From assembly GCF_000159035.1 (NCBI RefSeq), contig NZ_DS999574.1:800160-864159 (forward strand): DNA of 64,000 bases, in the 5' to 3' direction. The notes under the pieces were generated by a model. The model saw only the letters and a program-made list of their open reading frames with translations, was not told where the DNA came from and did not search any database. Both the position numbers and the translations under genes were made by a program. Positions 3,726 to 36,678 of the stretch are shown here, piece after piece. This DNA is from Actinomyces urogenitalis DSM 15434. GTDB taxonomy: Bacteria > Actinomycetota > Actinomycetes > Actinomycetales > Actinomycetaceae. Position 1 is the first letter of the stretch. The number at the start of each line of letters is the position of its first letter.

Positions 3726-3782
3726 TTAGGTGTCATGGTAGCGGCTCCCGCCCGCAAAGTCGCCCGGAGGGGGGTGGAAAAT

Positions 3783-3826
3783 GCGTTCGTGCCCGAGCCA
3801 GGACCTCCTGGCTCGGGCACGAACGC
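3783..3826 (-). terminator. Transketolase terminator hairpin
   Basis: Twenty-one perfectly paired bases (arm 3783-3803 against 3806-3826) around a two-base centre, immediately after the tkt stop. There is no clear T tract, as in the other long hairpins of this window. It separates tkt from araD, so araD needs its own promoter. Confidence 0.75.
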
Positions 3827-3844
3827 GGCGTCAGGTCTGCGGGA

Positions 3845-5929
3845 TCAGGCCTTGTTCAGTGCCTGGGTCGCGACCTCGGCCACGTGCTCGGGCGTGAAGC
3901 CGTACTCCTTGAACAGCAGCGAGCCCGGGGCGGAGGCGCCGTAGTGCTCGAGCGAGACGATCGCGCCGTCGTCGCCCACGTACTCGCGCCAGCCCATGGC
4001 GATGCCGGCCTCGATGGCCACCTTGGTGGCGTCCTTGGGCAGGACGGAGGCGCGGTAGGCCTCGTCCTGGGCGTTGAACCACTCCAGGCAGGGGGCCGAG
4101 ACCACGCGCGTGGGCGTCCCGGCCTTCTGCAGCAGCTCACGGGCGCCCAGCGCCACGCCCACCTCGGAGCCAGTGGCCACGAGGACGACGGCGGGGCTCG
4201 CCTCGGCGCCGGAGGCGTCAGTGGCCTCAGCCAGGACGTAGGCGCCCTTGCGCAGCCCCTCGCGAGCGGCCTGCGGGGTCGCAGCGACCTGGAGGTTCTG
4301 GCGGCTGAGGATGAGGCCGGCCGGACCGCGCTGCTCCAGGATCGCCAGCCAGGCGGCCGCGGTCTCGTTGGCATCGGCCGGGCGCACGACGGCGAGACCG
4401 GGGATGGCGCGCAGGGAGGCCAGGTGCTCGATCGGCTGGTGGGTGGGGCCGTCCTCACCCACACCGATCGAGTCGTGCGACCACACGAAGGTCGAGGGCA
4501 GGCCCATGAGCGCGGCCAGACGGACGGCCGGGCGCATGTAGTCGCTGAAGACCAGGAAGGTGCCGCCGTAGGGGCGGGTCAGGCCGTCCAGGGCAATGCC
4601 GTTGAGGATGCCACCCATGGCGTGCTCGCGGATACCGAAGTGCAGGGTGCGGCCGTAAGGCCCGTCGCCGTCGTTCTGAGCGAGGCTGGCCGGCAGGAAG
4701 GAGGGCTCGCCAGCCATCGAGGTGTTGTTCGAGCCGGCGAGGTCGGCCGAGCCTCCCCACAGCTCCGGCATGACCGGGGCCAGGGCGGTGAGCGTCTTGC
4801 CGGAGGCGGCGCGGGTGGCCACGGACTCGCCGAGCTCCCAGGTGGGCAGGGCGCCGGCCAGGTCCTTAGGCAGGGTGTGGGCCTCCAGGCGCTCCAGCAG
4901 GGCAGCGCCCTCGGTGTTAGCGGACTTCCATGCCTCGAAGCGTGCGTCCCAGTCCTCGTGGGCGGCCTTGGCGCGCTCGGCAACGTGTCCGCGGGTGTAG
5001 GCCAGCAGCTCGGCGGGGACGTCGAAGCTCTTGGCTGGGTCCAGACCGAGGGCTTCCTTGAGGCTGGCGACCTCGTCGGTGCCGAGCTTGGAGCCATGGG
5101 AGCCGGCCGTACCCTGTTTGGTGGGCGAGGGCCAAGCGATGATGGTGTGCAGGCGGATGAGGGTGGGGCGCGTGGTCTCGGCGCGAGCCTCCTCAAGCGC
5201 GGCGTGGAGGGCCTCAAGGTCCTCGAGGTAGGTGCCGCCCTTCTTCCAGTCCACGTCCAGCACCTGCCAGCCGTAGGCGGCGAAGCGTGCGGAGGGGTCC
5301 TCGGTGAAGGAGATGTCGGTGTCGCCCTCGATGGAGATGTCGTTGTCGTCATAGATGGCGATGAGGTTGCCCAGCTGCTGGGTTCCAGCCAGGGAGGCGG
5401 CCTCGGCGGCCACGCCCTCCTGGAGGCAGCCATCGCCCATGATCGTGTAGACGAAGTGGTCGAAGACGGACTCGCCGGCCGGGGTAGCGGCGTCGAACAG
5501 GCCGTGCTCGCGGCGGGCAGCCATGGCCAGGCCGACGGCGTTGGACAGGCCCGCACCCAGCGGGCCAGTGGTGGTCTCCACGCCCTTGGTGTGGCCGTAC
5601 TCGGGGTGGCCGGGGGTCAGGGAGCCGGCTTGGCGCAGCTGCTCCAGGTCGCTGACCTCCAGGCCGTAGCCAGCCAGGGTCAGCTGGACGTACTGCAGCA
5701 CGGAGGCGTGCCCGGCGGACAGGACAAAGCGGTCGCGACCCAGCCACTGCGGGTTGGCCGGGTCGCAGGCCATCTCGTACTGGTAGAGCAGGTAGGCGAC
5801 GCCGGCCAGGGAGATGGCGGTCCCCGGGTGACCGGATCCGGCCTTCTCGACGGCGTCGGCCGCCAGTGCCTTGGAGACGGCCACGGCCTTGCGGTCGTCG
5901 TCGGTCAGAGAGAAGGGGGCAGGGCTCAT
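3845..5929 (-). CDS. tkt: Transketolase
   Basis: Thiamine-diphosphate enzyme of the non-oxidative pentose phosphate pathway; moves two-carbon units between ketose and aldose phosphates. The 694-residue length is that of a complete TktA-type enzyme. Visible features are the N-terminal substrate loop (GSGHPGTA), the ThDP-binding GDGCLQEG followed by NDISIEGDTD, and the central signature EDGPTHQPIEHLASLR. An AAAGGAG Shine-Dalgarno lies about nine bases before ATG 5929. It follows the decayed operon by about 170 bp and precedes araD. Erythrose 4-phosphate, a likely product of that lost operon, and xylulose 5-phosphate from xylose or arabinose are both its substrates. Confidence 0.95.
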   Translation of the reverse strand: MSPAPFSLTDDDRKAVAVSKALAADAVEKAGSGHPGTAISLAGVAYLLYQYEMACDPANPQWLGRDRFVLSAGHASVLQYVQLTLAGYGLEVSDLEQLRQAGSLTPGHPEYGHTKGVETTTGPLGAGLSNAVGLAMAARREHGLFDAATPAGESVFDHFVYTIMGDGCLQEGVAAEAASLAGTQQLGNLIAIYDDNDISIEGDTDISFTEDPSARFAAYGWQVLDVDWKKGGTYLEDLEALHAALEEARAETTRPTLIRLHTIIAWPSPTKQGTAGSHGSKLGTDEVASLKEALGLDPAKSFDVPAELLAYTRGHVAERAKAAHEDWDARFEAWKSANTEGAALLERLEAHTLPKDLAGALPTWELGESVATRAASGKTLTALAPVMPELWGGSADLAGSNNTSMAGEPSFLPASLAQNDGDGPYGRTLHFGIREHAMGGILNGIALDGLTRPYGGTFLVFSDYMRPAVRLAALMGLPSTFVWSHDSIGVGEDGPTHQPIEHLASLRAIPGLAVVRPADANETAAAWLAILEQRGPAGLILSRQNLQVAATPQAAREGLRKGAYVLAEATDASGAEASPAVVLVATGSEVGVALGARELLQKAGTPTRVVSAPCLEWFNAQDEAYRASVLPKDATKVAIEAGIAMGWREYVGDDGAIVSLEHYGASAPGSLLFKEYGFTPEHVAEVATQALNKA

Positions 5930-6100
5930 CGCTTGAGGCTCCTTTGTCGTGGGTGGGGCGACGATGAGTGTTGCCCCGACTGTGCTGATCCTCCCGCGCG
6001 AGGGTGCGCTGGCTCAACTGCACAGCACGCCCGCGGACGGGAGGTGGTGTTCCCGCCCCAAAAGTATCAGGGGAGAACAAAAGTGGGGAGGGACGTATGG

Positions 6101-6331
6101 TCAGGCCTGGCTGCGCTCGAACTCGCAGATGCGCTCAACCTTGGGGCCGGAGCGGCCGTTGGGGTCGAACTGGCCGGCCAGGTACTCGCGCAGGAAGACC
6201 TTGGCGCTCTCGGGGCCCACGACCTGGGAGCCCATGGAGATGAGGTTGGCGTTGTTGGACAGGCTGGCGCGCTGAGCCTGGTAGACGTCGGCCACGCAGG
6301 CGCAGTAGGCGCCGGGGACCTTGTTGGCGGC
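6101..6331 (-). pseudogene. C-terminal half of an RpiB/LacAB-family sugar-phosphate isomerase
   Basis: The last 76 residues of the chimeric frame are typical of RpiB: AANKVPGAYCACVADVYQA, SLSNNANLISMGSQVVGPE, then FDPNGRSGPKVERIC. The N-terminal half, with the nucleotide-like fold start and the catalytic Cys-containing loop, is gone. It is joined in frame to the truncated MFS carrier, most simply by a deletion that removed the end of the MFS gene and the start of rpiB. Actinobacterial RpiB paralogues next to DhaK-type kinases act as erythrulose-phosphate isomerases (DerI), but the exact substrate here is inference. Confidence 0.8.
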
Positions 6332-7392
6332 GATGGACAGCAGGATGAGAGCCGGCACCGGGCTGTGCAGGAAGAAGGCGGAGCCCCCAATGCCGATGCC
6401 GGAGAAGGCCAGCATGAGCGCAGCCAGACCAGCGTGGTTCTGACGGCGGTCCGCGACCTTGGGCAGGATGATGACGCCGATCAGGGCCACGGCCCACGGA
6501 ATGGCCGTGATGAGGGGGGCCTTGAGGCCGGCCTCGCCGTTGGTCATGTTGACGACCTGCTTGGGCAGGAAGAAGGTCAGGCCGTAGACCGAGGCCTGGA
6601 TGCACAGGTAGATGAGGCAGAAGTAGAGGATGCGCGGGTCAAGCATGGCCTGCTTCCACGAGATCGGCTTGGCCTCGTGCTTAGCGGCCTCCTCGTGGGC
6701 GATTTGCTCGCTGAGGTGCTCCTTCTCGTCCTGGGTCAGCCAGCGGGCGTTGGCGGGGCGGTCAACCAGGACGAAGGGGCAGATGAAGCCGGCGACGACG
6801 GCCAGGAGGCTCTCGACCAGGAACATCCAGTGGATGCCGTCCATGCCCAGCAGGCCGTCAAGCTCCAGCAGACCGCCGGACAGCGGGTTGCCGAACATGT
6901 TGGCGATGGGCAGGCCCATGTAGAACAGACCCGTGGCCCAGGAACGGCGCGCTGCCGGGTACCAGTAGGTCAGGTAGAGCATGACGCCGGGGAAGAAGCC
7001 GGCCTCGGTGATACCCAGCAGGAAGCGGAGGGTGTAGAAGCTCATCGGCCCCTGGACGAACATGAAGCAGGCGGCGACTCAGCCCCAGCTGATCATGATT
7101 CGGGTCATCCACCACCGTGCACCGACCCGGTGCATGATGAGGTTCGAGGGGACCTCGAAGACGGCGTAACCGATGAAGAAGAGCGTGGCGCCGAAGGTGT
7201 AGGCGGCAGTAGAGACGCCGTAGTCGGCCTCCCAGGCCTGCTGGGCCCAACCGAGGTTGGTGCGGTCAACGAAGGCGATGACGTACATCAGCAGCAGGAA
7301 CGGGATGAGGCGCTTGGTCACCTTGGACAGAGCGGACTCAACGATGGCGGGCTTGGGTGTGAAGCCCGTACGCAGAGGGGGTGGTGGGTCAT
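6101..7392 (-). pseudogene. Broken MFS sugar/acid transporter fused to an RpiB remnant
   Basis: An MFS carrier of the anion:cation symporter type (N-terminus LIPFLLLMYVIAFVDRTNLGW, then RFLLGITEAGFFPGVMLYL), with three lesions. The ATG at 7392, preceded by a perfect AAGGAGG, is one base out of frame with the transporter; a single added base near codon 2 would restore PPPPLRTGFTPKP and the conserved ALSKVTKRLIPF. An in-frame TGA (7079-7081) interrupts the frame after RIMISWG. After about ten membrane segments the frame changes family: residues from AANKVPG (6331) to the end belong to an RpiB-type isomerase. The last membrane helices are missing. A truncated product could start at GTG 7321 but would stop after 80 residues. 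Not expected to be functional. Confidence 0.85.
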
Positions 7393-7484
7393 GCGTGACC
7401 TCCTTGTCACGTCTGACGGGATGGTAGGTGGTAGGCGACGTGAGGTCGCCGCGGGGTGTTGAGGGCGCACCCTCCCTGTGCGGG

Positions 7485-7514
7485 GGAGGCGAGTACGTGC
7501 GTCCCCCGCACAGG
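7485..7514 (-). terminator. Hairpin between the isomerase and MFS pseudogenes
   Basis: Thirteen paired bases (7485-7497 with 7502-7514), as CCTGTGCGGGGGA and its complement around a four-base loop. It lies about 40 bp past the end of the isomerase gene and more than 90 bp before the old MFS start, so the MFS gene once had its own transcript or was read through. Confidence 0.55.
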
Positions 7515-7550
7515 TGTGGCCGTGGAAGGCCTGGTGAGACGGCGTCGTCC

Positions 7551-8474
7551 TTACTTGTTGTTGAGGTAGGAGCGGATGACGTCGCGGATGTACTCGGCGT
7601 TCTCGACGCCTACGCCGAGCCAGTCCGAGCCGTAGTGCTCGACCATGAAGGGGCCGGTGTAACCGAGCTTGAGAGCCTTGCGGATCACGGCGCGGTAGTT
7701 GATCGTCCCGTACTTGAGCGGGACAGGCGCGGACATGTAGGAGCCGGTGGCCGGGTCCTCGTCACGGATGTAGTTCTTGATGTGTCAGTAGTTGGCGTAG
7801 GGCAGCACGATGTCGTACATGTCCTCGCCCTTGGGCATGGGACGGTGCAGGCGGATGAGGTTGCCGATGTCCGGGTTGATGCCGACGGCGGCGTGGTCGA
7901 TGTCCTTGAGGAACTGGACTGCGCCCTCGGGGGTGCCGAGGAACGTGTCCTCGTACATCTCCAGGCTGATCTGCATGCCCAGGCTCTGTGCGTGCTCGCC
8001 CAGCTCGCGCACGCGCTCTACAGCCTTGTCATACAGCGCTGGGTCGTCATGGTGGCCGTCAGCCAGCCAGAACCACAGGGCCTCCTTCTGGGCGGGGTAG
8101 AGCTCCTGGAGGAAACCGACGTTAACGAACTTGGCGCCCAGCTCGGCGCCACGGTCGATGGTGCGGTGGACCATTGCCAGGTTCTCGTCGCCACGCTCGG
8201 TGTCGATGACCGAGTTGCGCCCGATCGAGATGGCGATGATGCGCAGGTCGAGGTCGTCCAGGACCTCCTTGAGCTCAGCGAAGCGCTCGTCGCTGATGTC
8301 GCCGATCGGCACCCAGTCGTCCATGGGGTCGATGTAGCGGTAGCCCAGCTCGGCCACCTGGGTGAGTTGCTCGCGCCAGACGCTCGCGGGTGCCTGCGCG
8401 GCGAGCTGGCCGTCCTCGGTGTAGGGGCCGTAGCTGATCTTGGCCGCGATGGGCCAGCCGTCTGCTGTGTACAC
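7551..8474 (-). pseudogene. TIM-barrel sugar isomerase/epimerase with an in-frame TGA
   Basis: Xylose-isomerase-like TIM barrel (AP_endonuc_2 family) of about 307 codons. It starts at GTG 8474 five bases after AAGGAGG. Metal-ligand-type segments are visible (SLEMYEDTF, GINPDIGNL). The frame is broken by TGA at 7785-7787, directly after PYANY and before HIKNYIRDEDP. Related enzymes read YWH(I/V)KNY here, so the lesion is very probably a Trp TGG to TGA change. The frame continues intact to the natural end (VIRSYLNNK). The UGA is followed by C, a relatively leaky context, so some read-through cannot be excluded. Possible substrates include tetroses, pentuloses or apiose-like sugars; I cannot choose between them. 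Confidence 0.82.
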
Positions 8475-8580
8475 GTCATCCTCCTTGATGTCGTTCCTTG
8501 GGGGTGTGTCAGGGTGTGTTGGTCCTGGCCTGGCACGCTGGAGGGCGGGCCCGGCTTGAGGGCAAGTGGTGGGGCGGGTG

Positions 8581-10302
8581 TCAGGAGCGGGTTGCCAGCT
8601 CCTGGGAGATAGCGGTGACGATCTGCGAGAAGGAGACCGCGCCGGGGTCGGGGTGTCCCAGAGAGGCGTCGCCGTGGGTCTTGGCGCGTCCCTTGCGGGC
8701 GGCCATGTCTGCAGTGGAGGCCGCAGCCTGGGTGGCGATCTCGGCCGCGTCTCGGAAGGCGGAGGCCAGGTCAGTGCCGGCCTCGCTCATGGCTTGGACA
8801 AAGGGCTCGGTGGCGTCGACCATCGTCTTGTCACCGACCTCGGCCCCGCCGAACTCGGCCACGGCGCGAGCCCCGGCTGCGACCGCCTGGACCAGGTCGC
8901 CGTCGTCGGTCTGGGTCTCGTCGCTCAGGCGTGAGGCGATCGTCTCCAGCGCGCGACCCCACAGGGCGCCGGACGTTCCGCCAGCGCCCTCTGCCCAGGC
9001 CTGGCCGGCCAGGGTCAGCAGCGTGGCTGCTCCGACCTTGGCCTCCAGCGCGGTGTGCGCGGCACTGGCGGCAGCCGTAGCGCCCAGGACCATGCCCTGA
9101 CCGTGGTCGCCGTCCCTGGCGATGGAGCCGAGCTGGCCGAGGGACTCGGCGTTGGCCTTGCAGGTGCGGGCCACGAGGTCAAGCAGCTCGGTCACCCGCC
9201 GTGCCTGAGCCACGGAGGATTCGGCGCCCGGGGTGATCTGGGCGGCGGCGGCGTCCTTGACCTCACGGCGGGCTCCGCTGAGAGAGGCGCCGTCAACCTG
9301 GCCGCGAGTGAAGGCGGGGGTGTAGGCCGGGGCGGTCCACAGCTCCTCCAGCTCCTCGTCCAGGAAGCACACCGTCAGGGAGACTCCGGCCATGTCCAGG
9401 CTCGTGACGGCCTCGTCAACGACGGGGGCCACGATGGTGAGCCCCGCCTGCTCCAGCAGCTCGGCGATGTCCCCGTACAGGACGAAGAGCTCCTCGTACT
9501 TGGCTGCGCCCAGGCCGTTGACGATGACGGCCACGCGGCCGTGGTAGCCGTCCTTGCCGCGCTCGGGCTCCTCAGCCAGCACACCGGAGACCAGGCGCTG
9601 GGCGACCTCGGTGGCTCCCACCAGCTGGTGACTGGACAGGCCGGGCTCACCGTGGATCCCGAGCCCCAGCTCGTAGGTGCCGTCAGCCACCTCGAAGAGG
9701 GGCTCGGTGGCGCCCGGCAGGGTCGGCCCGGAGAAGGCGATGCCGAGGGAACGGGTGAGGTCGTCGGAGCGCCAGGCCAGGGCCTCGACCTGGTCAAGGT
9801 TGTCCCCGCGTGCGGCAGCCGCACCGGCGACCTTGGCCACGATGAGGTCCCCGGCGATACCGCGGCGCTCGTGGTGCTTGTCCGGCTTGCCCGAGGCGAC
9901 GTCGTCGGAGATGGTCACGATGCGAGCATCAATGCCCTCCTCGGCCAGAGCCTTGGCTCCCTGGCCGAACTGGAGGCAGTCGCCGGCATAGTTGCCGAAG
10001 AGCAGGAGCGTGCCGGCTCCGTTGTCCGCCGAGCGGGTCACGGAGATGACCTGCGAGGCAGAGGGGGAGGCGAAGATGTTGCCGCACACGGCACCGTGGG
10101 CGATGCCGGGGCCCACCCAGCCGGCGAAGGCCGGGTAGTGCCCGCTGCCGCCACCGACGACGACGGCGACCTCGCCCTCGGGGGAGGTCGCCGCGCGCAC
10201 GACGCCGCCGTGGACGGGCTGGACCAGGTCAGCGTGGGCGGCGACGAAGCCACGCAGGCTGTCGGCAGCAAAGGTCAGTGGGTCGTTGACCAGGAATGTC
10301 GC
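8581..10302 (-). CDS. DhaK-DhaL fused kinase (dihydroxyacetone/erythrulose kinase type), start codon apparently lost
   Basis: ATP-dependent kinase for dihydroxyacetone or a tetrulose such as erythrulose. The DhaK domain carries VVGGGSGHYPAF and the substrate-binding histidine in LGIHGEPG. The DhaL domain has DGDHGQGM, then the Gly-rich GAGGTSGALWG. The body, about 573 codons, is intact. The start is not: AAGGAG followed by six bases leads to GCG (10300-10302) where ATG or GTG is expected, and no ATG, GTG or TTG lies in frame between the upstream stop (10175-10177) and GTG 10200. That GTG would delete about 34 conserved residues and has no Shine-Dalgarno. The gene probably lost its start by point mutation, in line with the broken genes downstream of it. 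Confidence 0.75.
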   Translation of the reverse strand, partial: ATFLVNDPLTFAADSLRGFVAAHADLVQPVHGGVVRAATSPEGEVAVVVGGGSGHYPAFAGWVGPGIAHGAVCGNIFASPSASQVISVTRSADNGAGTLLLFGNYAGDCLQFGQGAKALAEEGIDARIVTISDDVASGKPDKHHERRGIAGDLIVAKVAGAAAARGDNLDQVEALAWRSDDLTRSLGIAFSGPTLPGATEPLFEVADGTYELGLGIHGEPGLSSHQLVGATEVAQRLVSGVLAEEPERGKDGYHGRVAVIVNGLGAAKYEELFVLYGDIAELLEQAGLTIVAPVVDEAVTSLDMAGVSLTVCFLDEELEELWTAPAYTPAFTRGQVDGASLSGARREVKDAAAAQITPGAESSVAQARRVTELLDLVARTCKANAESLGQLGSIARDGDHGQGMVLGATAAASAAHTALEAKVGAATLLTLAGQAWAEGAGGTSGALWGRALETIASRLSDETQTDDGDLVQAVAAGARAVAEFGGAEVGDKTMVDATEPFVQAMSEAGTDLASAFRDAAEIATQAAASTADMAARKGRAKTHGDASLGHPDPGAVSFSQIVTAISQELATRS

Positions 10303-10371
10303 GGTGAACTCCTTGATGGGCTCCGTCGCATCCTTGCGACGTGCTGCAGGTGTGTCCTGCGTTACGTAAAG

Positions 10372-10383
10372 ATCCTATAGGAT
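10372..10383. promoter_or_regulatory. Palindromic operator ATCCTATAGGAT
   Basis: A perfect 12-bp palindrome in the divergent region between the kinase gene and the GntR regulator. Its position, size and symmetry fit an operator for a GntR/FadR-type dimer controlling both directions. Confidence 0.65.
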
Positions 10384-10474
10384 ATGGAGTGTGGGGTGTC
10401 AAGGGGTGGGATACCCCGTTCCTGATCCCGCTTCCTTGCCGTGTGCAGGTGTGTGCTCCCTTTAAGGTTTTCTC

Positions 10475-11242
10475 ATGTCTCCCACCCCTGTCCCGCAGCC
10501 TGCCTTTGAGCCGATTCCGGCGCGGGGCCTGACCGATGACGTCTATGACACGCTCCTCGACATGCTCACTTCGGGTGTCTTTGAGCCTGATGCTCCGCTC
10601 TACATTGATCGACTGGCTAGGAGCCTGCAGGTCTCTCCGACTCCGGTCAGGGAGGCGCTGGCTCGGCTGGAGTCAACCGGGCTGATCAGCCGCACGACTC
10701 GTCGTGGTTACCGGGTGGCGCCTCCGATGTCAGCGGAGCAGATGCGAGAGCTGGTGGAGGCGCGGCTTGTGCTGGAAGCCGGTGCGCTAGAACGTGCGCT
10801 AGAAGATAAGGAAGCCCTCGTCGCCGATCTTCGCTCAGCGTGGGAGCGGCACAGGGCTGAGGCAGAGAAATTCTCTGACCCCACACTGGTCTTCGACGTT
10901 CAGGCAGTGCACGAGTACTTCGAGATCGACTGGTCTTTTCACCAGGCGATCCTCGATCACTGTGGGAACCGGTACATCAACCGGTCGGTCAACGCTCTTT
11001 CCTTCTCGGTTCACCGCATGCGTCAGACGATCGGGGCTGGCGCCACTGACGCACCAATTGCTGTGGCGGAGCACGCTGCGATCCTGCGGGCTCTGGAGGA
11101 AGGGCGCGATGAGGACGCTCTAGACGCCTTGGCTAGTCACCTGCGCAATGTAGCCGCGCGCTCGACGCAGAAGGACGAAGGCGTGGATGAGGGAGTTGGC
11201 GACGTGCGGAAGGACGGCAGAAGCGGGAGACGGACTGTCTAA
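10475..11242 (+). CDS. GntR-family transcriptional regulator (FCD/FadR subfamily)
   Basis: The N-terminal winged helix-turn-helix (about residues 15-80) contains LARSLQVSPTPVREALARLE and the wing RGYRV. The C-terminal FCD ligand domain shows the metal-binding type signature in EIDWSFHQAILDH. Length is 255 residues, normal for the subfamily. It is divergent from the kinase of the decayed operon with a palindrome in between, so it was probably that operon's sugar- or acid-responsive repressor. The gene itself is intact. Its stop overlaps the stop of the convergent LacI gene by four bases, leaving no room for a terminator. Confidence 0.9.
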   Translation: MSPTPVPQPAFEPIPARGLTDDVYDTLLDMLTSGVFEPDAPLYIDRLARSLQVSPTPVREALARLESTGLISRTTRRGYRVAPPMSAEQMRELVEARLVLEAGALERALEDKEALVADLRSAWERHRAEAEKFSDPTLVFDVQAVHEYFEIDWSFHQAILDHCGNRYINRSVNALSFSVHRMRQTIGAGATDAPIAVAEHAAILRALEEGRDEDALDALASHLRNVAARSTQKDEGVDEGVGDVRKDGRSGRRTV

Positions 11243-12255
11243 CTGATTGGGCGCAGTGAGGCTCCTGCATGGAACAAGGGGGAGATGGTCTGTAGGCCCT
11301 GGTTGAGGTTGCGGGGGCTTCCCTCAAGCGTGTTGATGAGGATCTCGATCGCGGTGGAGACCACTGTAGGTACGTCCGCATCGAAGTAGGTGTAGTCGAT
11401 CTCCGTGTGGGGCGAGTCTGCCGGGTGCGCGGCTGCCACGAGTGAGACGTCCTCGCCGGGAGTCAGGCCGAGGGCGAGCAGGGCGTTGGCGGCGTCGTCG
11501 GCGCACAGCGTCGGGCCTGTGATGACGGCGGACAGGTGGGGGTGGGACTGAAGAGCCGTGCTGATCGCTTCTCGCATCGGGGCAAGACCTCGTTGGACCT
11601 GTGCCGGTATGAGATCGCAGCCGCGGCGTGCGGCCTGAGCCGTCAGTGTGTGGTCAAAGCGGTGCGAGAATCCCATGGCGCACACGTGCTCCGAGGCGCT
11701 GGTCAGAATCAGGGTCTCGGTGTGCCCACGATCAGCAATGAGGTCGATGCAGCGCTCAGCGATCTCCTCGAAGCTGGTGTCGACCGCTGTCACGTCGGAG
11801 TCGTGGCTGGTACCGATGAAGATCGACGGGATGCGCGCCTCGTGGGCCTGGAGCACGCGAGGGTCAGAGTCGAGCACGTCCATAATCACCAGCCCGTCGC
11901 ACTGGGCGGAGTCGATGAGACGGCGCATTCCCTCGATGCCCTCCTCTGAGGAGGCCATGAGGAGCTCGTAGTCGTACTTGCGGCAGGCGGCGGCGATCGA
12001 GACGACGTAGCGGTACTGGTTCGCGGTGTCCGTGAGTGCGTGGTAGGGCACGACGGTGCCGATGATGCCGCTGCGCCGACTCCTTAAGGCGCGGGCGCTG
12101 ACGTGGGGTCGGTAGCCCAGCTCGTCCATGGCCGCCAGGACACGCGCCTCGGTGTCTGGTGCGACGAACCGCTTGCCGCTCAGGACGTAGGAGACCGTCG
12201 ACTGCGAGACGCCGGCGGCCTCGGCAACATCGCGGCTGGTGACGGAAGTGGCCAT
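11239..12255 (-). CDS. LacI-family regulator, probably of the alpha-xylosidase operon
   Basis: The helix-turn-helix starts at residue 5 (TSRDVAEAAGVSQSTVSYVL), followed by the hinge LRSRRSGIIGTVVP and a periplasmic-binding-protein-like sensor domain. The frame is open upstream, but ATG 12255 (MATSVTSRD) puts the HTH in the standard place and gives 338 residues. It is divergent from an ABC importer plus GH31 operon, with a perfect 20-bp palindrome in the gap (12412-12431). The likely role is substrate-relieved repression of that operon. Confidence 0.9.
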   Translation of the reverse strand: MATSVTSRDVAEAAGVSQSTVSYVLSGKRFVAPDTEARVLAAMDELGYRPHVSARALRSRRSGIIGTVVPYHALTDTANQYRYVVSIAAACRKYDYELLMASSEEGIEGMRRLIDSAQCDGLVIMDVLDSDPRVLQAHEARIPSIFIGTSHDSDVTAVDTSFEEIAERCIDLIADRGHTETLILTSASEHVCAMGFSHRFDHTLTAQAARRGCDLIPAQVQRGLAPMREAISTALQSHPHLSAVITGPTLCADDAANALLALGLTPGEDVSLVAAAHPADSPHTEIDYTYFDADVPTVVSTAIEILINTLEGSPRNLNQGLQTISPLFHAGASLRPIS

Positions 12256-12411
12256 CTGTGTCTCCGGGGCGTGTGGTGGGGTCGAAAGGGAAGCGCAAGA
12301 TTGTCTTGCGGTCAACTTATTCTCACGATACATCCGTGACACGGAGCACGGCGACGAGGCTGTGCCCAACCCCATTAAATCATCGTCCGAGGCACTGAAG
12401 GATCAGATTCA

Positions 12412-12431
12412 ATACGTATGCGCATACGTAT
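12412..12431. promoter_or_regulatory. Perfect 20-bp palindromic operator before the GH31 importer operon
   Basis: ATACGTATGCGCATACGTAT reads the same on both strands. It sits about 45 bp before the start of the binding-protein gene and about 155 bp from the divergent LacI gene. Size, central CG and location fit a LacI-family operator for the regulator at 11239-12255. Confidence 0.75.
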
Positions 12432-12475
12432 GCGGCTGAGATTTCAGCGTTTTGACGAGGAGGAAGGATCCACTC

Positions 12476-13729
12476 ATGTCTGCAACGATGCCCATGACCT
12501 CGATCGCCCGTCGCCGTCTCCTCCAGGGCACCGCCCTTGCACTGGCCGCCGTGCCGCTGGCCGCCTGTGGCGGAGGCGGTGGTACCAAGTCCGGCTCTGG
12601 CGACGTCACCACCCTGAAGATCCTTGACTACTACGCCGACGACCCCGACAACGGCATCTTCGCTGAGACGCTGGAGGCGGCGGCCAAGAAGGTTGGCGTC
12701 ACGATTGAGCGTGAGACTGTCAACGGTACGAGCCTGATCCAGAAGGTCCTGCAGATGAGCTCCTCACGGACTCTGCCTGACCTGCTCATGCTGGACAACC
12801 CTGACCTGCAGCAGATCGCGGCGACCGGCGCGCTGACGCCTCTGGGTGATCTCGGTTTCAAGGCGGACGGTTTCATTGACGGGTTCGTGGGTGCTGGTAC
12901 CTATGACGGTGAGCTCTACGGCATGGGTCCGTGTGCCAACACCCTCGGTCTGTACTACAACAAGGACCTGCTTGACGCGGCGGGCGTTGCCGTGCCGACC
13001 ACCTGGGACGAGCTCAAGGCCGCCGCGAAGACGCTGACGAGTGGCGACACCTACGGCATCGCCTTCTGCGCGAAGGCGTCCTATGAGGGCTCTTGGCAGT
13101 TCCTGCCCTTCTTCTGGTCAGCCGGCGCGGACGAGACTGACATTGCTACTCCCGAGGCTGCCAGTGCTCTCCAGCTGTGGGTTGATCTCGTGCGGGAGGG
13201 GTCGGCGTCGGAGTCCGTTCTCAACTGGTCCGAGACCGAGCTTGGTGAGCAGTTCACCTCCGCCAAGGCCGCCATGGTCATTGACGGCCCATGGCTGACG
13301 ACGACCTTTGACAAGTCTGACGTCAACTGGGCGGTGGCTGAGATCCCGGTTCCGGCTGCGGGTGACACGGCGGTCGCACCGCTGGGCGGTGAGCTGTGGA
13401 CGATCCCCCAGACCGGTGACCAGGCCAAGCAGGCCAAGGCCATGGAGCTGCTGCAGGCTCTCCTGGACGACGACACGGTTCTGGATCTCAACACCACCCG
13501 CTTCACCATCCCCACGAAGGAAGCTGTCGACGCCGCCTACATCGAGGCGCTGCCTCAGATGGAGTCGCTGGTCACCGCCGTGAACAACGGCCGCTCGCGC
13601 ACTGCCCAGCTTGGTGAGGCGTGGCCCAAGACCGCCGAGGCGCTCTACAACGCGATCCAGTCGGCGCTGACGGGCAAGGAAGAGCCTCTGGCCGCACTAG
13701 AGACAGCCAAGTCTGACTTCCTGTCCTGA
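12476..13729 (+). CDS. ABC sugar-binding lipoprotein (family 1 solute-binding protein)
   Basis: Extracellular substrate receptor of the importer encoded by the next two genes. The signal peptide has an RRR twin-arginine-like region and the lipobox LAAC (about residues 10-30), so it should be a membrane-anchored lipoprotein. The rest, about 390 residues, is a maltose-binding-protein-like fold (MYNKDL-type segment YYNKDLLDAAGVAVPTTWDEL). ATG 12476 is chosen over an upstream in-frame ATG because AGGAGGAAGG stands at the right distance. The alpha-xylosidase at the end of the operon suggests a xylosylated glucan oligosaccharide as cargo. Confidence 0.9.
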   Translation: MSATMPMTSIARRRLLQGTALALAAVPLAACGGGGGTKSGSGDVTTLKILDYYADDPDNGIFAETLEAAAKKVGVTIERETVNGTSLIQKVLQMSSSRTLPDLLMLDNPDLQQIAATGALTPLGDLGFKADGFIDGFVGAGTYDGELYGMGPCANTLGLYYNKDLLDAAGVAVPTTWDELKAAAKTLTSGDTYGIAFCAKASYEGSWQFLPFFWSAGADETDIATPEAASALQLWVDLVREGSASESVLNWSETELGEQFTSAKAAMVIDGPWLTTTFDKSDVNWAVAEIPVPAAGDTAVAPLGGELWTIPQTGDQAKQAKAMELLQALLDDDTVLDLNTTRFTIPTKEAVDAAYIEALPQMESLVTAVNNGRSRTAQLGEAWPKTAEALYNAIQSALTGKEEPLAALETAKSDFLS

Positions 13730-13735
13730 CAGCGA

Positions 13736-13762
13736 GGCCGGGGCCGCAGGCGGGCCCCGGCC
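13736..13762 (+). terminator. Hairpin between the binding-protein and permease genes
   Basis: GGCCGGGGCC (13736-13745) pairs with GGCCCCGGCC (13753-13762), ten perfect pairs with a seven-base loop, directly after the binding-protein stop. Without a T tract it is more likely an attenuator or 3'-end stabiliser that raises binding-protein over permease expression. Confidence 0.6.
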
Positions 13763-13789
13763 CGCGACTGACGAGAAAGGAGCGCAACG

Positions 13790-14704
13790 GTGCCGTCTGA
13801 AACGATCCGACCAGCACGCCGTCGTCAGCAACGACGCGAGGAGCTGGCGAAATGGGCCTTCCTGACCCCCGCAATTGCCTTCCTGCTGTTGTTCTTCGGC
13901 TATCCGATCATCAAGAACGTCACGATGAGCCTGCAGGAGTACACGACCAAGACCTTCTACACCGGTGAGGCACCCTTCGTTGGGCTGGACAACTACATCG
14001 CGGTCATCCGGTCCTCGGTCTTCACCACTGCCCTGCTGAACACGGTTCTGTTCACCGTCGGATCCATCATCGGGCAGTTCACCATCGGTCTGGCGTTGGC
14101 AGTCTTTTTCAAGAAGCGTTTTCCGCTCAGCGGCGTCATGCGCTCGCTCCTGCTGCTGCCCTGGCTGCTTCCGATGATTGTCTCCAGCGCCATCTGGAAG
14201 TGGATGCTGGACAAGGACAGTGGCGTCATCAACCAGCTCCTCGGCTTACTCCACATCGACGCTGTGCCGTGGTTGACGAGCACCTCTGTAGCGCTGATTG
14301 CCGTCATCATGGTCAATATCTGGCTCGGTATCCCCTTCAACATGACCATCCTCTACTCCGGGCTCCAAGACATCCCGGACGAGCTGTACGAGGCCGCGGC
14401 ACTGGACGGAGCCGTGGGATGGAAGGCCTTCCGCAACGTCACCTGGCCTCTGCTGCGCCCGGTGGTCTCGGTGGTCCTCATTCTTGGCGTGGTCTACACC
14501 CTCAAGGTTCTTGACATCATCCTGGGCCTGACTGGAGGCGGACCCTCTAACGCCACGGAGACGCTGGCGACGCAGTCCTACAAGCTCTCCTTCGCCAACT
14601 TCGAGTTCGGTCAGGGAGCGGCACTGGGCAACATCCTCGTGATCATCGCCCTCGTCTTCGCACTGGTCTACCTGCGGGTCACCCGCTCCAGCAACCAGGA
14701 CTGA
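13790..14704 (+). CDS. ABC sugar permease, MalF/UgpA type
   Basis: Inner-membrane permease of about 304 residues with six predicted membrane helices (first around residues 23-42). The cytoplasmic EAA loop that docks the ATPase is visible near residue 200 (ELYEAAALDGA). It starts at GTG 13790 after AAAGGAG. It sits between the binding protein and a second permease; no ATPase gene is in the operon. Confidence 0.9.
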   Translation: MPSETIRPARRRQQRREELAKWAFLTPAIAFLLLFFGYPIIKNVTMSLQEYTTKTFYTGEAPFVGLDNYIAVIRSSVFTTALLNTVLFTVGSIIGQFTIGLALAVFFKKRFPLSGVMRSLLLLPWLLPMIVSSAIWKWMLDKDSGVINQLLGLLHIDAVPWLTSTSVALIAVIMVNIWLGIPFNMTILYSGLQDIPDELYEAAALDGAVGWKAFRNVTWPLLRPVVSVVLILGVVYTLKVLDIILGLTGGGPSNATETLATQSYKLSFANFEFGQGAALGNILVIIALVFALVYLRVTRSSNQD

Positions 14705-17633: not shown

Positions 17634-17667
17634 CTGACTGCTGCTTAACCGATCGCTGAGCGGTAAT

Positions 17668-17710
17668 CGGGCGGACGTTCTTCCTGTGTGTCAGGAGGAG
17701 CGTCCGCCCG
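17668..17710 (+). terminator. Rho-independent-type terminator after the GH31 operon
   Basis: CGGGCGGACG (17668-17677) pairs with CGTCCGCCCG (17701-17710). The next seven bases also pair, with a few G-U pairs, giving about 17 pairs around a nine-base loop. A T-containing tail (TCATTCGCTCTTT) follows. It isolates the operon from the next importer. Confidence 0.8.
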
Positions 17711-17836
17711 TCATTCGCTCTTTAGGAGGTTTGGATCACAGCAGGCGAGGCCAGTTTTTTCTACAGACCCTAGGGCGGGCAGGTTCCTAACCTTGGCGAC
17801 ACGGACAAGGAAGTCTCACGGAAAGGGCAGATCCCC

Positions 17837-19138
17837 ATGCTCATCTCACGTCGCCACGCGCTAACCGCTGCCGGCCTCGCCGCTGTCGCTGCCTCCCTGG
17901 CAGCGTGTGGCTCTGGTTCCTCTGGCAAGACCTCGGACGGTAAGGACGTCATCCACGCGATGTTCGTCAACTCCACCTCTGACGTCGCTGTCTGGGAGAT
18001 CATCCAGGACATCACTAAACGCTTCAACGAGTCCAACACCTTCAACGTGGAGATGCAGGTTGAGGGGTACGAGAACGAGCAGTACAAGACCAAGCTCGCC
18101 TCCCTCATGGCGTCTAGCTCTCAGCCGGACGTCTTCTTTACCTGGAGCTCGGGGTACCTCAAGCCCTTTGTCGAAGGGGGCAAGATCTACGAGATCGGGC
18201 AGCTTCTCGACGCGGACGAGGAGTGGAAGGCTCGCTTTAACGAGAGCGTCTTCGGCCCGGTCAGTTTTGACGACAAGATCTACGCCGTTCCCAACGGCCA
18301 GGTCGTGGCCGTGATGTTCTACAACACTGAGATCTTCGATCAGGTCGGTGTGCAGGTGCCGACGACGTACGAGGAATTCGTTGACGTCGTCACCAAGATC
18401 AAGGCAGCCGGTATCACCCCGATCTCGGCACCGGTCAAGGACGCCTGGATCGCGGGGCAGCTGCTCCAGCAGCTGGCCAACGCCCATGGAGGTCAGGAGC
18501 TCTTCGACGGGACTGTGGACGGCTCGCGAAAGTGGAATGACGAGAAGTACGTCCAAGCAGGTGAGAAGCTCAAGGAGCTCGTGGAGCTGGGCGCCTTCCC
18601 GGATGGCTACCTCGGCATGACCAATGATGAGGGACGCAACCTCTTCACTGCGGGCGAGTGTGCCATGTACTACATGGGTTCCTGGGATACCGGAGTCCTG
18701 TCCGACGAGTCCCTCGCCATCGCAGGCAAAGTCAGTGCCTTCAACATCCCGGCGGCCAAGGGGCTGGAGGAGAACGTCGCGGTCGGGGACATCGACCTGG
18801 CCTACGCGGTGAGCTCCACCTCCAAGCACCCGGAAGCTGCCGCTGAGTTCATCAAGATGTTCTCCGATCCTGAGGTGCAGGCAAAGCTGGCGTCAGGGGC
18901 CAACTACCTCCCCTCAACCTCGGTGCCCTTGGATGAGTCTGCGCTGTCCCCGCTGTTCGTCACGGTCTCTGGCATCCAGGAAGAGCTGACGGCAACAACA
19001 CCGTGGTTCGACCGAGTCTTTGGCGCCGGTGAGGGCGTGGAGTTCAACAACGCTGCTCAGGCGATCATCGCTGGAGAGGATCCCCAGCAGCACATGGACA
19101 GCCTGCAGTCCTTCGCACAGTCCAACGCACAGCGCTAA
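17837..19138 (+). CDS. ABC sugar-binding lipoprotein of the two-component-regulated operon
   Basis: Solute receptor of 433 residues. Signal peptide with SRRHAL and lipobox LAAC near residues 20-30. A family 1 binding-protein fold follows (FYNTEIFDQVGVQVPTTYEEF). First gene of a run that continues through two permeases, a response regulator, a sensor kinase and a GH42 beta-galactosidase. Galactose-containing oligosaccharides are therefore the likely cargo. Confidence 0.9.
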   Translation: MLISRRHALTAAGLAAVAASLAACGSGSSGKTSDGKDVIHAMFVNSTSDVAVWEIIQDITKRFNESNTFNVEMQVEGYENEQYKTKLASLMASSSQPDVFFTWSSGYLKPFVEGGKIYEIGQLLDADEEWKARFNESVFGPVSFDDKIYAVPNGQVVAVMFYNTEIFDQVGVQVPTTYEEFVDVVTKIKAAGITPISAPVKDAWIAGQLLQQLANAHGGQELFDGTVDGSRKWNDEKYVQAGEKLKELVELGAFPDGYLGMTNDEGRNLFTAGECAMYYMGSWDTGVLSDESLAIAGKVSAFNIPAAKGLEENVAVGDIDLAYAVSSTSKHPEAAAEFIKMFSDPEVQAKLASGANYLPSTSVPLDESALSPLFVTVSGIQEELTATTPWFDRVFGAGEGVEFNNAAQAIIAGEDPQQHMDSLQSFAQSNAQR

Positions 19139-19151
19139 TCCATCCGTCGAT

Positions 19152-19183
19152 GGGGTGGGGGTCGGCCTCGCGGCTCCCACCCC
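19152..19183 (+). terminator. Hairpin between the binding-protein and permease genes
   Basis: GGGGTGGG (19152-19159) pairs with CCCACCCC (19176-19183), 14 bp past the binding-protein stop. Same placement as in two other importer operons of the window, so probably partial termination or mRNA protection. Confidence 0.55.
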
Positions 19184-19213
19184 TCGCATCGGCATGCTCA
19201 AAGGAGAGCACCC

Positions 19214-20095
19214 ATGAATCAGCTGTTGAGCAGAAAACGTTACATTCTCGGCTTCGTCGGCCCGGCCTTTCTTCTCTTCTTTGCCTTTGCTCTGTTCCCG
19301 ATCGCTTACAACGTCTGGATGAGCCTGTTCAGGACAGACCTCATGAGCCCGTCTCAGTGGGTCGGGCTGGAGAACTATAAGAACCTCTTCGAGGACCGGA
19401 TCTTCCTCACTTCTCTGAAGAACAACCTACTCATGGTGGTGGGCTCGCTGCTCGCTCACCTGCCGCTCGCCCTGCTGCTGGGCAACTTCCTGTTCCACAA
19501 GGTCAGGGGAAGTCAGTTCTTCCAGTCGGTCTTCTTCCTGCCCTGCGTCGTGTGCGGTGTGGCGGTTGGCCTGACCTGGACCTTTATCTACAACTCGCAG
19601 TTCGGTCTCGTGAACTCCATCCTGGATGGCCTGCGGGCCGCTGGGCTCAAGCGAGAGTGGCTCTCGGACGAGAAGACCGTCATGCTGGCCATCATCGTGG
19701 TGGTGATGTGGCAGTTCGTCGGTTACCACATGGTCATCCAGCTGGCGGCCATGCGCTCGATTCCTGCCGAGATGTTTGAGGCCGCCACCGTAGACGGCGC
19801 CTCCTCCTGGCAGCAGTTCAAGATGATCACGTTGCCAATGATCCGTCCCATGATCAAAGTGGATGCGATCCTCATCATCACCGGTTCACTGAAGTACTTC
19901 GACCTGGTCATGGCCATGACCAAGGGTGGACCGAACCACGCCTCTGAGGTCATGTCCACCTACATGTACACCTCCGCGTTCCGTACCTTGAAGTTCGGGT
20001 ACGCCAGCGCTATCGCCAACATCCTCTTGATCCTGTGCGTGGTGGCGATTCTGCTGAGCAACTTCGTCTTCAAGTCCGAGAAGATCGAGTACTGA
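19214..20095 (+). CDS. ABC sugar permease, MalF/UgpA type
   Basis: A 293-residue inner-membrane permease. The first helix is near residues 12-32 (FVGPAFLLFFAFALFPIAYNV) and the EAA loop is EMFEAATVDGASSWQQF. It begins just after GGAGAGCACCC. It follows its binding protein and precedes its MalG partner by 12 bp. Confidence 0.9.
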   Translation: MNQLLSRKRYILGFVGPAFLLFFAFALFPIAYNVWMSLFRTDLMSPSQWVGLENYKNLFEDRIFLTSLKNNLLMVVGSLLAHLPLALLLGNFLFHKVRGSQFFQSVFFLPCVVCGVAVGLTWTFIYNSQFGLVNSILDGLRAAGLKREWLSDEKTVMLAIIVVVMWQFVGYHMVIQLAAMRSIPAEMFEAATVDGASSWQQFKMITLPMIRPMIKVDAILIITGSLKYFDLVMAMTKGGPNHASEVMSTYMYTSAFRTLKFGYASAIANILLILCVVAILLSNFVFKSEKIEY

Positions 20096-20107
20096 GAGGA
20101 AGCGGAG

Positions 20108-20941
20108 ATGAATCAGAAATTCTCCCCCAAGGTTGCACCGCTGGTTTACGGCGTTCTCATCCTGTTCGCGGTCCTGTTCCTGTACCCGATCCTGTGGCTG
20201 GTCATTAACTCCTTCAAGACCAATGCCGAGCTCTTTGCCTCTCCCTGGTCCCTACCTGGCAGCCTCAGTCTGGAGAACTACTACAAGGCCTTCACCGAGG
20301 GCAATATTGGCCGCTACTTCGTCAACTCAGTGATCGTGACAGGTGCGGTGGTGATCGTGGCCACGGTCCTGTCAGCGATGGCCGCTTACGGGCTGACGCG
20401 GCTGCGCTGGAGGCTGTCCAAGCTCGTCCTGGCACTCTTCCTGCTGGGGCTGTCCATCCCGATGCATGCCGCCGTGGTGCCGTTGTTCGCAATGTTCAAC
20501 AAGCTCCAGATCGTCAACACCTACTTGGCCGTCATCATCCCGCACGTCGTCTTTGCGATGCCGATCGCCATCCTCATTCTCACCAGCTTCTTCAGTACGA
20601 TCCCGCATGAGGTTGAAGAGGCGGCCGTCATGGACGGGTGCTCGATCTGGGGAGTGTTCTTCAAGATCATCTGCCCGATGGCAGTTCCCTCGCTCGTCAC
20701 CGTGGCGGTCATTACCTTCATCAACGCCTGGAACGACCTTCTTCTCCCACAGATCTTCCTGTCTGACCCAGAGATGATGACGCTGCCGGTGGGGCTGACA
20801 GCATTCCAGGGGCGCTACTCCACAGACTACGTTGCCATGATTGCGGCCGTCGTGATCACGATCATCCCGACCATCGTGGTCTACTCGCTGCTGCACAAGA
20901 AGATCATCAGCGGGATGACAGCCGGGGCAGTCAAGGGGTGA
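20108..20941 (+). CDS. ABC sugar permease, MalG/UgpE type
   Basis: A 277-residue partner permease. The first helix covers about residues 11-32. The EAA loop is atypical in ending EEAAVMDGCSIWGVFF, with Cys after DG. The C-terminus GMTAGAVKG is characteristic. A strong GAGAGGAAGCGGAG precedes the ATG. The response-regulator gene starts only 4 bp after its stop. Confidence 0.9.
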   Translation: MNQKFSPKVAPLVYGVLILFAVLFLYPILWLVINSFKTNAELFASPWSLPGSLSLENYYKAFTEGNIGRYFVNSVIVTGAVVIVATVLSAMAAYGLTRLRWRLSKLVLALFLLGLSIPMHAAVVPLFAMFNKLQIVNTYLAVIIPHVVFAMPIAILILTSFFSTIPHEVEEAAVMDGCSIWGVFFKIICPMAVPSLVTVAVITFINAWNDLLLPQIFLSDPEMMTLPVGLTAFQGRYSTDYVAMIAAVVITIIPTIVVYSLLHKKIISGMTAGAVKG

Positions 20942-20945
20942 AGGT

Positions 20946-21797
20946 GTGCACACGCTCTGCATCGTTGATGACGAGCCCATTATTCGCGAGGGCTTGGCAT
21001 CACTGCCCTGGGCCGAGGCACAGATCAAGGTGGCAGCCTGCCTGAGCAACGGTTTAGAAGCGGTCGAGACTCTCCAGTCCGAGGTCATTGACGTCATCCT
21101 GGCGGACATCCGGATGCCGGCGTTGGACGGGCTAGGCCTGTGCCGCTTCGTGGCAGAGGGCTCGCTCAATACGGCGGTGGTGCTCCTCTCGGGACACAGC
21201 GATTTCGCTTATGCACAGGAGGCGATCTCTCTGGGGGTCAGTGCCTACCTCCTCAAGCCCTCGACCCCTGAGGAGATCATCGAGGCGGTCAGCGCAGGAG
21301 CTCGGCAGGTTGCTGCCCGTCGCGAGACTGATACTCGGCTGCGACTCCTAGAGTCCGAGCTCGGGCGCCAGCGGCTGGCTGACCAGGACGGCGAGCTCGT
21401 CCTGGGCGCCAAGCCGCACGGTGACGCCTGCGAGGCGGCGCTGGCGTATCTGCGAGAGCGGTATACCGAGCCGATCTCGCTGGGAACGATGTCTGAGGCC
21501 CTGCACTTCAGCACGATCTATCTTAGTCGTGTCCTCAAACGGGCCACGGGACATACCTTCTTGGAGCTTCTCAACGCGCTCAGGCTCCAGCATGCGGCTC
21601 GACTGCTGAGGGAAACAGACCAGTCCTTTACGGAGATCGCCGCGGCGGTGGGAGCCAATGACGCTCGTTACTTTGGCCAGGTCTTCAGAAAGGCCTATTC
21701 CGTCACTCCCATGGCCTATCGGCGTTGCCCGGTGCTTCCAGGCGACGAGGAGCTCCATCTCTTCGCCTCGCGCCTGGAGGCGGGGGAGGTCTCGTGA
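20946..21797 (+). CDS. Response regulator with AraC-type DNA-binding domain (YesN-like)
   Basis: Receiver domain at residues 1-120 with acidic pocket DDE, the phospho-acceptor Asp in LADIRMP, a Ser in LLSGHSD and the conserved Lys in LLKPS. The C-terminal AraC helix-turn-helix pair runs from about residue 165 (ISLGTMSEALHFSTIYLSRVLK to the end of FTEIAAAVG). GTG 20946 is the start. Its stop overlaps the sensor kinase start by four bases. It probably activates this same operon, 3 kb upstream, when its kinase senses sugar or ligand-loaded binding protein. Confidence 0.92.
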   Translation: MHTLCIVDDEPIIREGLASLPWAEAQIKVAACLSNGLEAVETLQSEVIDVILADIRMPALDGLGLCRFVAEGSLNTAVVLLSGHSDFAYAQEAISLGVSAYLLKPSTPEEIIEAVSAGARQVAARRETDTRLRLLESELGRQRLADQDGELVLGAKPHGDACEAALAYLRERYTEPISLGTMSEALHFSTIYLSRVLKRATGHTFLELLNALRLQHAARLLRETDQSFTEIAAAVGANDARYFGQVFRKAYSVTPMAYRRCPVLPGDEELHLFASRLEAGEVS

Positions 21798-35297: not shown

Positions 35298-36356
35298 TCA
35301 GCGGGCTGGGGCCGCCGTCGAGCCACGTACGACCAGGGTGGTCTGTAGCTCGACGGGGCTGCCGAGGCTGCGCCCCTCATTGAGGGCGTTCATGACGGTG
35401 CGGATCGCTTCAGCGCCGATCTCCTGCAGCGGCTGGCGGATGACGGTGACCTGGGGCGAGCACAGCGAGGCGATCGAGGTGTCGTCAAAGCCGATGACGG
35501 ACAGGCCCTCTGGCACGCGAATTCCGTGACGGCGTGCGGCCTCCAGGATTCCTCCCGCGATGGCGTCGTTGAGGGCAAAGACTGCTGTGGGCGGGTTCTC
35601 GGACTCCAGAAGGAAAGAGCCATGAACCACGCCGGTGGAGTACAGGTAGGGGCCGTGGGTCAGCAGGCTCTCGTCAACCTCGATGCCGGCGCGTGAGCAG
35701 GCGAACCGAAAACCTGCCAGCCTCTCGATCGTTGGCGTGGAGGAATCAGGACCGGCCACGATGCCGATCCGACGGTGACCGAGGCTGATGAGGTGCTCGG
35801 CTGCCTGGACTCCTCCGCGCCAGTTCGTCGCGGACAGCGTCACCATGCCGGGTGGGGGCGGTGTAGCCGGATCGATCGACAGCAGTAGAAGGTCGTGCTC
35901 GTGGGCAAAGGTGACGATGTCCGCACTGACGGGGGTGGTCACCAGGATGAGGGCGTCGGCGCCGTCTGCGGTTCGGGCGGCGAGCTCGCGGGTGAGCAAC
36001 GTGGCGTCTGGCCCCATCTGGTCGGCCGAGACGCCGATGTGGCGCACCTGGAGCGTGGCGCCGAGCTCGTCAACCGTGCGCAGCATGCCGCCGAGGATCT
36101 CAGTGGCGTAGGCATTGTTGACCGTGTCGAAGAGAACGGCGATTCGCTTGAAGGGGGAAGCTCCCTCCTCGGCGGCGGGGTCCTGGGTGGAAGGCAGTGG
36201 GTAGCCGAGGTCGGCAGCCGCTGCCAGGACGATGTCCTGGGTCTTGCGCGAGATGGAGGAGTCGGCGCGCAGGGCCTTGGACACGGTGGGTACGGAGAAG
36301 CCGGTGGCGGCAGCGATGGTGGCCTGCGTCGGGCGGGATGAGCGGGTTCGCGGCAT
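35298..36356 (-). CDS. LacI-family regulator, copy 2 of the duplicated unit
   Basis: A 352-residue regulator; HTH PTQATIAAATGFSVPTVSK, sensor domain with TNWRGGVQAAEHL and GFDDTSIASLCSP. The frame is open 27 codons upstream, but ATG 36356 gives MPRTRSSRPT, aligned with the paralogue at 32563-33651. It is divergent from the second binding-protein gene and probably represses that transporter operon. Confidence 0.9.
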   Translation of the reverse strand: MPRTRSSRPTQATIAAATGFSVPTVSKALRADSSISRKTQDIVLAAAADLGYPLPSTQDPAAEEGASPFKRIAVLFDTVNNAYATEILGGMLRTVDELGATLQVRHIGVSADQMGPDATLLTRELAARTADGADALILVTTPVSADIVTFAHEHDLLLLSIDPATPPPPGMVTLSATNWRGGVQAAEHLISLGHRRIGIVAGPDSSTPTIERLAGFRFACSRAGIEVDESLLTHGPYLYSTGVVHGSFLLESENPPTAVFALNDAIAGGILEAARRHGIRVPEGLSVIGFDDTSIASLCSPQVTVIRQPLQEIGAEAIRTVMNALNEGRSLGSPVELQTTLVVRGSTAAPAR

Positions 36357-36678
36357 CGTTCCTCCTCGACGGCGGTGGTCGCCGTCGTTCCTGCGTGCCA
36401 GTGACGATGAGGGCTGCGGTGCGCCTGTGGCAACCATAGCGGAGAACCTGCTCCGCCGCGAAAAAATTGCGCAAAAAACGGAGCAAAAGCGAGAAAAGTT
36501 ATCTGATCGTTACAAACAGGCGTGGTTAGTTCCGCAAGAGGGGTGTATTCTTCTGTTCGTCGGTGAAACGAACGAAAATTTTCACCACGGTTTCTGCCGC
36601 GGACGCGGTCATCAACGAACTTCTGACGAGGACGTCAGAAGGGGTCCGATGAGGGGCCCAGATCTGAGAGGAAGCATC
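36357..36678. promoter_or_regulatory. Divergent control region of the xylo-oligosaccharide-type importer
   Basis: This 322-bp gap carries no gene I can support. It contains GAAAAGTTATC (36493-36503), the inverse of a word in the paralogous region, and a 25-bp inverted repeat with arms GGTGAAA (36562-36568) and TTTCACC (36580-36586) that includes TGAAACGAAC. The latter is the best operator candidate for the divergent LacI. Confidence 0.55.

Follow-up and report, generated by a model that had tools for sequence, protein, structure and literature searches.

A broken kinase operon in Actinomyces urogenitalis DSM 15434 as the probable remainder of a recently lost catabolic island

EltD, LerK, LerI, and DerI, four enzymes of tetritol catabolism, are reportedly those of Mycolicibacterium smegmatis described by Huang et al. 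in 2015. D-Apionate catabolism employs ApnO, OiaC, and a LerK-type kinase. Passages of PMC10733421 give the route by which tetritols are converted to erythrose 4-phosphate via EltD, LerK, LerI, and DerI, and part of PMC12780249 sets out the tetritol route of M. smegmatis with reference to Huang et al. 2015. The present analysis concerns a window of 64,000 nucleotides from Actinomyces urogenitalis DSM 15434 (C67:800160-864159 of assembly G000; 2.70 Mb, 67 contigs, 93.6% complete), which harbors a damaged operon for a DhaK-type kinase, a TIM-barrel sugar isomerase, an MFS transporter, and an RpiB-type isomerase. This segment is very probably the pseudogenised remainder of a catabolic island that was recently lost through a deletion and several small lesions.

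A close relative was sought via the kinase among 49 genomes of the genus, G000 counted in. The kinase of G007 is 92% identical to that of the window, and its locus is colinear with window positions 6326-14547 (88.7% DNA identity) and 3845-6339 (91.9%). The G007 island consists of 14 genes, followed by tkt. Its first part encodes the kinase, isomerase, MFS transporter, an SDR protein, a second MFS transporter, an amidohydrolase, a PdxA-like protein, and a TPI-like protein. The other strand encodes a second DhaK-type kinase, a GntP transporter, a PGDH_C dehydrogenase, and a second TIM barrel; GntR and rpiB come next. The genes that carry inactivating lesions in the window are intact in G007, where the kinase begins with GTG, the isomerase retains TGG, the MFS gene has a run of six C residues and an ATC codon, and both the MFS gene and rpiB are whole. 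The island is patchily distributed in the genus, with a relative of the isomerase at E ≤ 1e-60 in 4 of the 49 genomes, G000 included.

The largest lesion is a deletion between direct repeats. In G007, the 14-bp word TGTCCATCGCGGCC occurs exactly at both ends of the missing segment, once in the MFS gene and once in rpiB, 12,019 bp apart, while the window holds one copy at the junction. It is the longest word common to the G007 rpiB and the final 1,019 bases of the MFS gene. The two copies share a reading frame (Ser-Ile-Ala-Ala), and the deletion thus yields a single fused MFS-rpiB frame (6101-7063). Ten whole genes are absent: those for the SDR protein, second MFS transporter, amidohydrolase, PdxA-like protein, TPI-like protein, second DhaK-type kinase, GntP transporter, PGDH_C dehydrogenase, second TIM barrel, and GntR. 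Because genes are truncated on both sides of the deletion, the state in the window is the derived one. The single deletion between the 14-bp repeats rules out two independent truncations of the MFS gene and rpiB. A truncated MFS 3′ end and a loss of the first half of rpiB had been described from the window alone; both are present, but as the two ends of one event.

Searches for the deleted segment elsewhere in G000 (9.8 of the 12 kb, with the best 40 of 233 candidates scored) returned no remnant. The five matches obtained comprised three within the window kinase and two of less than 50 bases. A PGDH_C family search of G000 gave no match, but it carries little weight, as its controls gave none either; a search for plasmid copies of the locus gave no match.

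The other lesions are small. The kinase start codon has become GCG at 10300-10302 on the minus strand, where G007 has GTG. Among 85 fetched loci with kinase homologues (most, not all, of them actinobacterial, and some ended early by contig ends), this position is ATG in 78, GTG in 5, and TTG in 1, an accepted start codon in 84 of the 85; in the last one, the alignment stopped short of the start. The isomerase lesion is a TGG>TGA change at residue 230, where 33 of the 34 homologues with 40% identity or more have Trp and the remaining one Met. The ATG of the MFS gene at 7390-7392 is followed by a run of five C residues at 7377-7381, one fewer than in G007, and by a TGA at 7079-7081 that is ATC in both G007 and genome G013. 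The frameshift after the ATG and the TGA, like the kinase and isomerase lesions, had been named in the original prediction, and each is present on alignment with G007, the check proposed there.

The ATC>TGA change comprises three substitutions. The new TGA completes a hairpin with a perfect 5-bp stem and a 4-base loop (7079-7092), which is suggestive only of a hairpin-templated (template-switch) origin. An inverted 5-base template within 30 bases exists for 4 of the 27 codons that differ from ATC at all three bases, TGA included, and for 8 of all 63 alternatives.

It is proposed that recombination or slippage between the 14-bp direct repeats of the MFS gene and rpiB removed 12,019 bp with the ten whole genes in a single event and left the ends of MFS and rpiB fused in frame. 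The kinase, isomerase, and MFS genes that stayed behind carry small inactivating lesions as well: loss of a start codon, a Trp-to-stop change, a one-base loss in the C run, and the replacement of three bases that gives TGA. The original prediction of a whole operon decayed by several separate lesions is thereby modified: the operon is decayed, but by fewer events and as part of a larger, nearly complete loss, that of a 14-gene island with ten more genes. The features of the window are collected in Table 1.

Table 1. Features of the operon remainder and its flanks in the window
Feature	Position	Strand	Basis
Transketolase tkt, intact	3845..5929	-	TIGR00232, 760 bits; open frame 93% identical to G007
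rpiB (RpiB-type isomerase) 3′ half, in-frame fusion to MFS remnant	6101..6339	-	PF02502 positions 70-138 only; G007 copy whole
Deletion junction, one copy of 14-bp direct repeat with one base changed	6326..6339	-	12,019 bp lost (G007 coordinates)
MFS transporter remnant	6326..7392	-	MFS_1 on G007 copy; 3′ end deleted
TIM-barrel sugar isomerase (AP_endonuc_2), in-frame TGA at 7785-7787	7551..8474	-	PF01261 on G007 copy; 97.7% identical to G007
DhaK-DhaL fusion kinase (dihydroxyacetone kinase family), start lost	8581..10302	-	NF011049, 678 bits; frame otherwise open
Palindrome TCCTATAGGA, candidate operator	10373..10382		between gntR and kinase; same place in G007
GntR/FCD regulator, intact	10475..11242	+	GntR and FCD domains on G007 copy; open frame 91% identical

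The remnants show no clear relaxed selection. Between G000 and G007, the ratio of nonsynonymous to synonymous substitution rates (dN/dS) is 0.110 for the kinase, 0.045 for the isomerase, 0.053 for the MFS remnant, and 0.147 for the rpiB remnant (74 codons only). Flanking genes give 0.117 (tkt), 0.079 (aldolase), 0.068 (gntR), and 0.069 (lacI), and those further out 0.038 (SBP) and 0.051 (radA). When the amino-acid changes in the four genes are polarised with outgroups, 20 are assigned to the G000 branch and 16 to that of G007, and 29 to neither; tkt, the aldolase, and lacI had no outgroup by which to polarise their changes. The neutral share of the G000 branch is estimated by likelihood at 1.7%, with an upper bound of 6.8%. 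The absence of clear relaxed selection, the otherwise clean frames, and the survival of the regulator, the likely operator, and tkt argue for a recent loss, as had been predicted. Old pseudogenes in long neutral decay were considered and are not supported by either dN/dS or the neutral share.

Several points weigh against a recent loss in the organism itself, and those concerning the assembly come first. The G000 assembly is scaffolded, with 12 stretches of 5 N or more across the 244 kb examined, and the evidence consists of one assembled sequence from one strain of the species. The C6/C5 difference is of an error type made by some sequencing methods. The lesions could thus be sequencing or assembly errors of a draft genome whose operon is intact in the organism, for which the N gaps, the position of one lesion in a homopolymer run, and a density of point lesions somewhat above what neutral drift predicts all speak. 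This explanation is very unlikely given a control in which a 244-kb stretch of G000 surrounding the locus (about 9% of the genome) was checked against 277 kb of G007, one gene at a time.

Close homologues were present for 134 of the 212 predicted G007 genes, of which 114 were intact and 20 flagged. The clearly broken ones number 4 of 134, all adjacent genes of the operon; that four broken genes be neighbours by chance has a probability of about 1 in 100,000 if drawn at random among the 134, a crude figure, as one deletion hit two of them. The 114 intact genes are counted against 130 others, and 8 of the 16 flagged genes outside the operon look like start-site or tail artefacts. Six of these have stops only in codons 9-23 of probably over-extended open reading frames (ORFs), one has a stop 11 codons from its end, and in one an indel precedes the probable ATG. 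Another six flagged genes are no more than 300 bp away from scaffold gaps and were not judged, and two (G007 2175204 and 2317059) were placed in neither the broken nor the artefact class. The sole frameshift of the control away from a scaffold gap is in a 133-codon ORF at G007 2142748, upstream of the probable true ATG.

The decay is thus local to the operon rather than assembly-wide, and assembly noise as a general cause is set aside by this control. Three of the lesions are substitutions and not indels, and the junction is continuous sequence containing the relative's 14-bp repeat, with the 9.8 kb tested not found elsewhere in G000 among the best 40 of the 233 candidates. Scattered sequencing error is an unlikely cause, and we infer that the lesions are present in the organism as well as in the assembly. 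The control can miss frameshifts near a gene start, and it missed the C-run lesion, where the alignment began after the C run; this one-base loss is the least secure of the lesions.

In the reverse comparison, 128 of 178 G000 ORFs had a close homologue in G007, 113 being intact and 15 flagged. The flagged ORFs comprise 11 with stops and 4 that are partial, the fusion ORF among the latter, and in 9 of the 11 the stops fall within the first 3-73 codons. A 584-codon ORF (C67:836391-838145; window 36232-37986) is open in G000 and interrupted by stops at codons 85 and 129 in its G007 counterpart; either the true start is late or the gene is broken in G007. For the ORF at G000 724186, the counterpart has a stop at codon 266 of 377, with only a quarter of the ORF aligned.

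A further adverse point is that a shortened kinase could be made. Its frame is open for 539 codons from a downstream GTG at 10200, and the MFS-RpiB fusion is in frame. Partial function would then be retained through a restart at this GTG, readthrough of the TGA codons, and a protein product of the fusion ORF. The restarted kinase would lack its first 34 residues, and neither the N-terminus of the MFS transporter nor the leading half of RpiB is present in the fusion. Nothing points to a changed genetic code; the two TGA codons are the only clear deep stops of G000 in the control, one gene of neither class apart. Retained function is, on these grounds, exceedingly improbable.

The last adverse points bear on the tempo of the loss. 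In the MFS remnant alone, 5 polarised changes fall on the G000 branch versus 1 on the G007 branch, which could be the onset of relaxed selection. At the estimated neutral share, and with equal rates, 0.27 null point lesions are expected, the probability of at least three being 0.003 and of at least two 0.03. At the upper bound, 1.07 are expected, with probabilities of 0.09 and 0.29, respectively. Because ATC>TGA takes three substitutions, it is fairer to count two single-base lesions. For so short a neutral period the lesions are rather many, and this gives selected inactivation or a wrong base call some scope.

Under selected inactivation, null alleles of the kinase, isomerase, and transporter would have been favoured after the 12-kb deletion had taken away part of the pathway, for example owing to an intermediate that is toxic when the other steps are missing, and would have outpaced silent changes. 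At least three small lesions accompany the deletion, with almost no excess of amino-acid changes, and a figure legend in PMC12780249 gives D-erythrose and L-erythrulose as inhibitors of growth in model bacteria. The lesion number is nonetheless ordinary at the upper bound of the neutral share (P 0.09 to 0.29), and the data, from a single genome, do not give the order of events. Inactivation driven by selection is therefore judged unlikely, and a recent loss by deletion and small lesions remains preferred.

The lost function would be to phosphorylate a four-carbon ketose and isomerise it to erythrose 4-phosphate, which would feed transketolase. A DhaK-type kinase, a TIM-barrel isomerase, and an RpiB-type isomerase are clustered here, as in the tetritol system with its LerK-LerI-DerI gene set, and Mycolicibacterium/Mycobacterium loci L012, L015, L029, and L030 hold the kinase (matched via the second kinase) together with RpiB, TPI, and isomerase relatives. 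In contrast to the tetritol system, the window genes are broken, and the G007 island adds a second kinase, PGDH_C, PdxA, amidohydrolase, and GntP. Across the 85 kinase-homologue loci, relatives of rpiB occur in 61, of TPI in 44, and of the isomerase in 35; all four families are held by 29 loci, isomerase and RpiB by 32, and a relative of the first MFS transporter by 8. The isomerase has a solved relative, 5tnv (E 4e-123).

The RpiB protein of G007 (LacAB_rpiB) falls short of the cut-off of NF051858, the D-erythrulose-4-phosphate isomerase family (136.7 versus 240 bits). The name of that family points to rhizobial enzymes, and a score below its cut-off would not exclude the activity. By family, the gene set fits LerK/LerI/DerI-type enzymes, and it is plausible but unproven that a four-carbon ketose was converted to erythrose 4-phosphate. 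The families and their clustering support the predicted pathway, with the RpiB score staying below the family cut-off.

The segment deleted from the window also bears a likeness to D-apionate catabolism, drawn from family names only: in G007, it holds PGDH_C, a second TIM barrel, a DhaK-type kinase, and GntP. The PGDH_C protein matches structures 5t57 and 3c24. The second TIM barrel has no solved relative at E 1e-5, and NCBIfam has no match at E 1e-10 for either protein.

Loss of metabolic genes has been described in the same family: part of an eLife paper of 2017 (PMC5404923) concerns Actinomycetaceae from human cavities that lost genes for histidine and tryptophan synthesis. Those cases, as that part presents them, are likewise reductive, but they concern biosynthesis, whereas here a catabolic island is lost and the lesions can still be read. 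Gene loss is a well-known kind of event, and the locus is a clean example of it rather than a new kind; it changes no general view. No published account of the locus was recognised among the matches listed in a literature search. Since an intact syntenic relative exists, catabolic gene loss can be read here with unusual clarity, in its deletion mechanism, its extent, and the near absence of neutral decay. It also leads to the prediction that the two close species differ in growth on four-carbon sugars.

The flanking tkt and gntR are intact, as originally predicted. The window tkt is the sole G000 match to cover nearly the whole Transketolase_N profile, two other matches being partial, and it is probably the housekeeping transketolase judging from this coverage. 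Its survival is then expected and says little about the operon. The gntR ORF has 255 codons in the window and 237 in G007. The palindrome TCCTATAGGA listed as a candidate operator was not found in the G013 locus.

Further differences from G007 lie elsewhere in the window, at whose left edge a 714-base N run ends. At window 17634-25383, about 7.7 kb have no match of more than 300 bp in the stretch of G007, which has some 120 bp between the corresponding flanks; this is either an insertion specific to G000 or a loss in G007. Colinearity ends at window 57315-64000, and the next match of more than 300 bp is at window-relative 65000, with about 24 kb between in G007. Beside tkt, G007 has about 4 kb between this gene and an AraD-like aldolase that are without counterpart at window 3753-3845. 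This segment encodes a periplasmic binding protein, two FecCD permeases, and an ABC ATPase, a siderophore-type importer.

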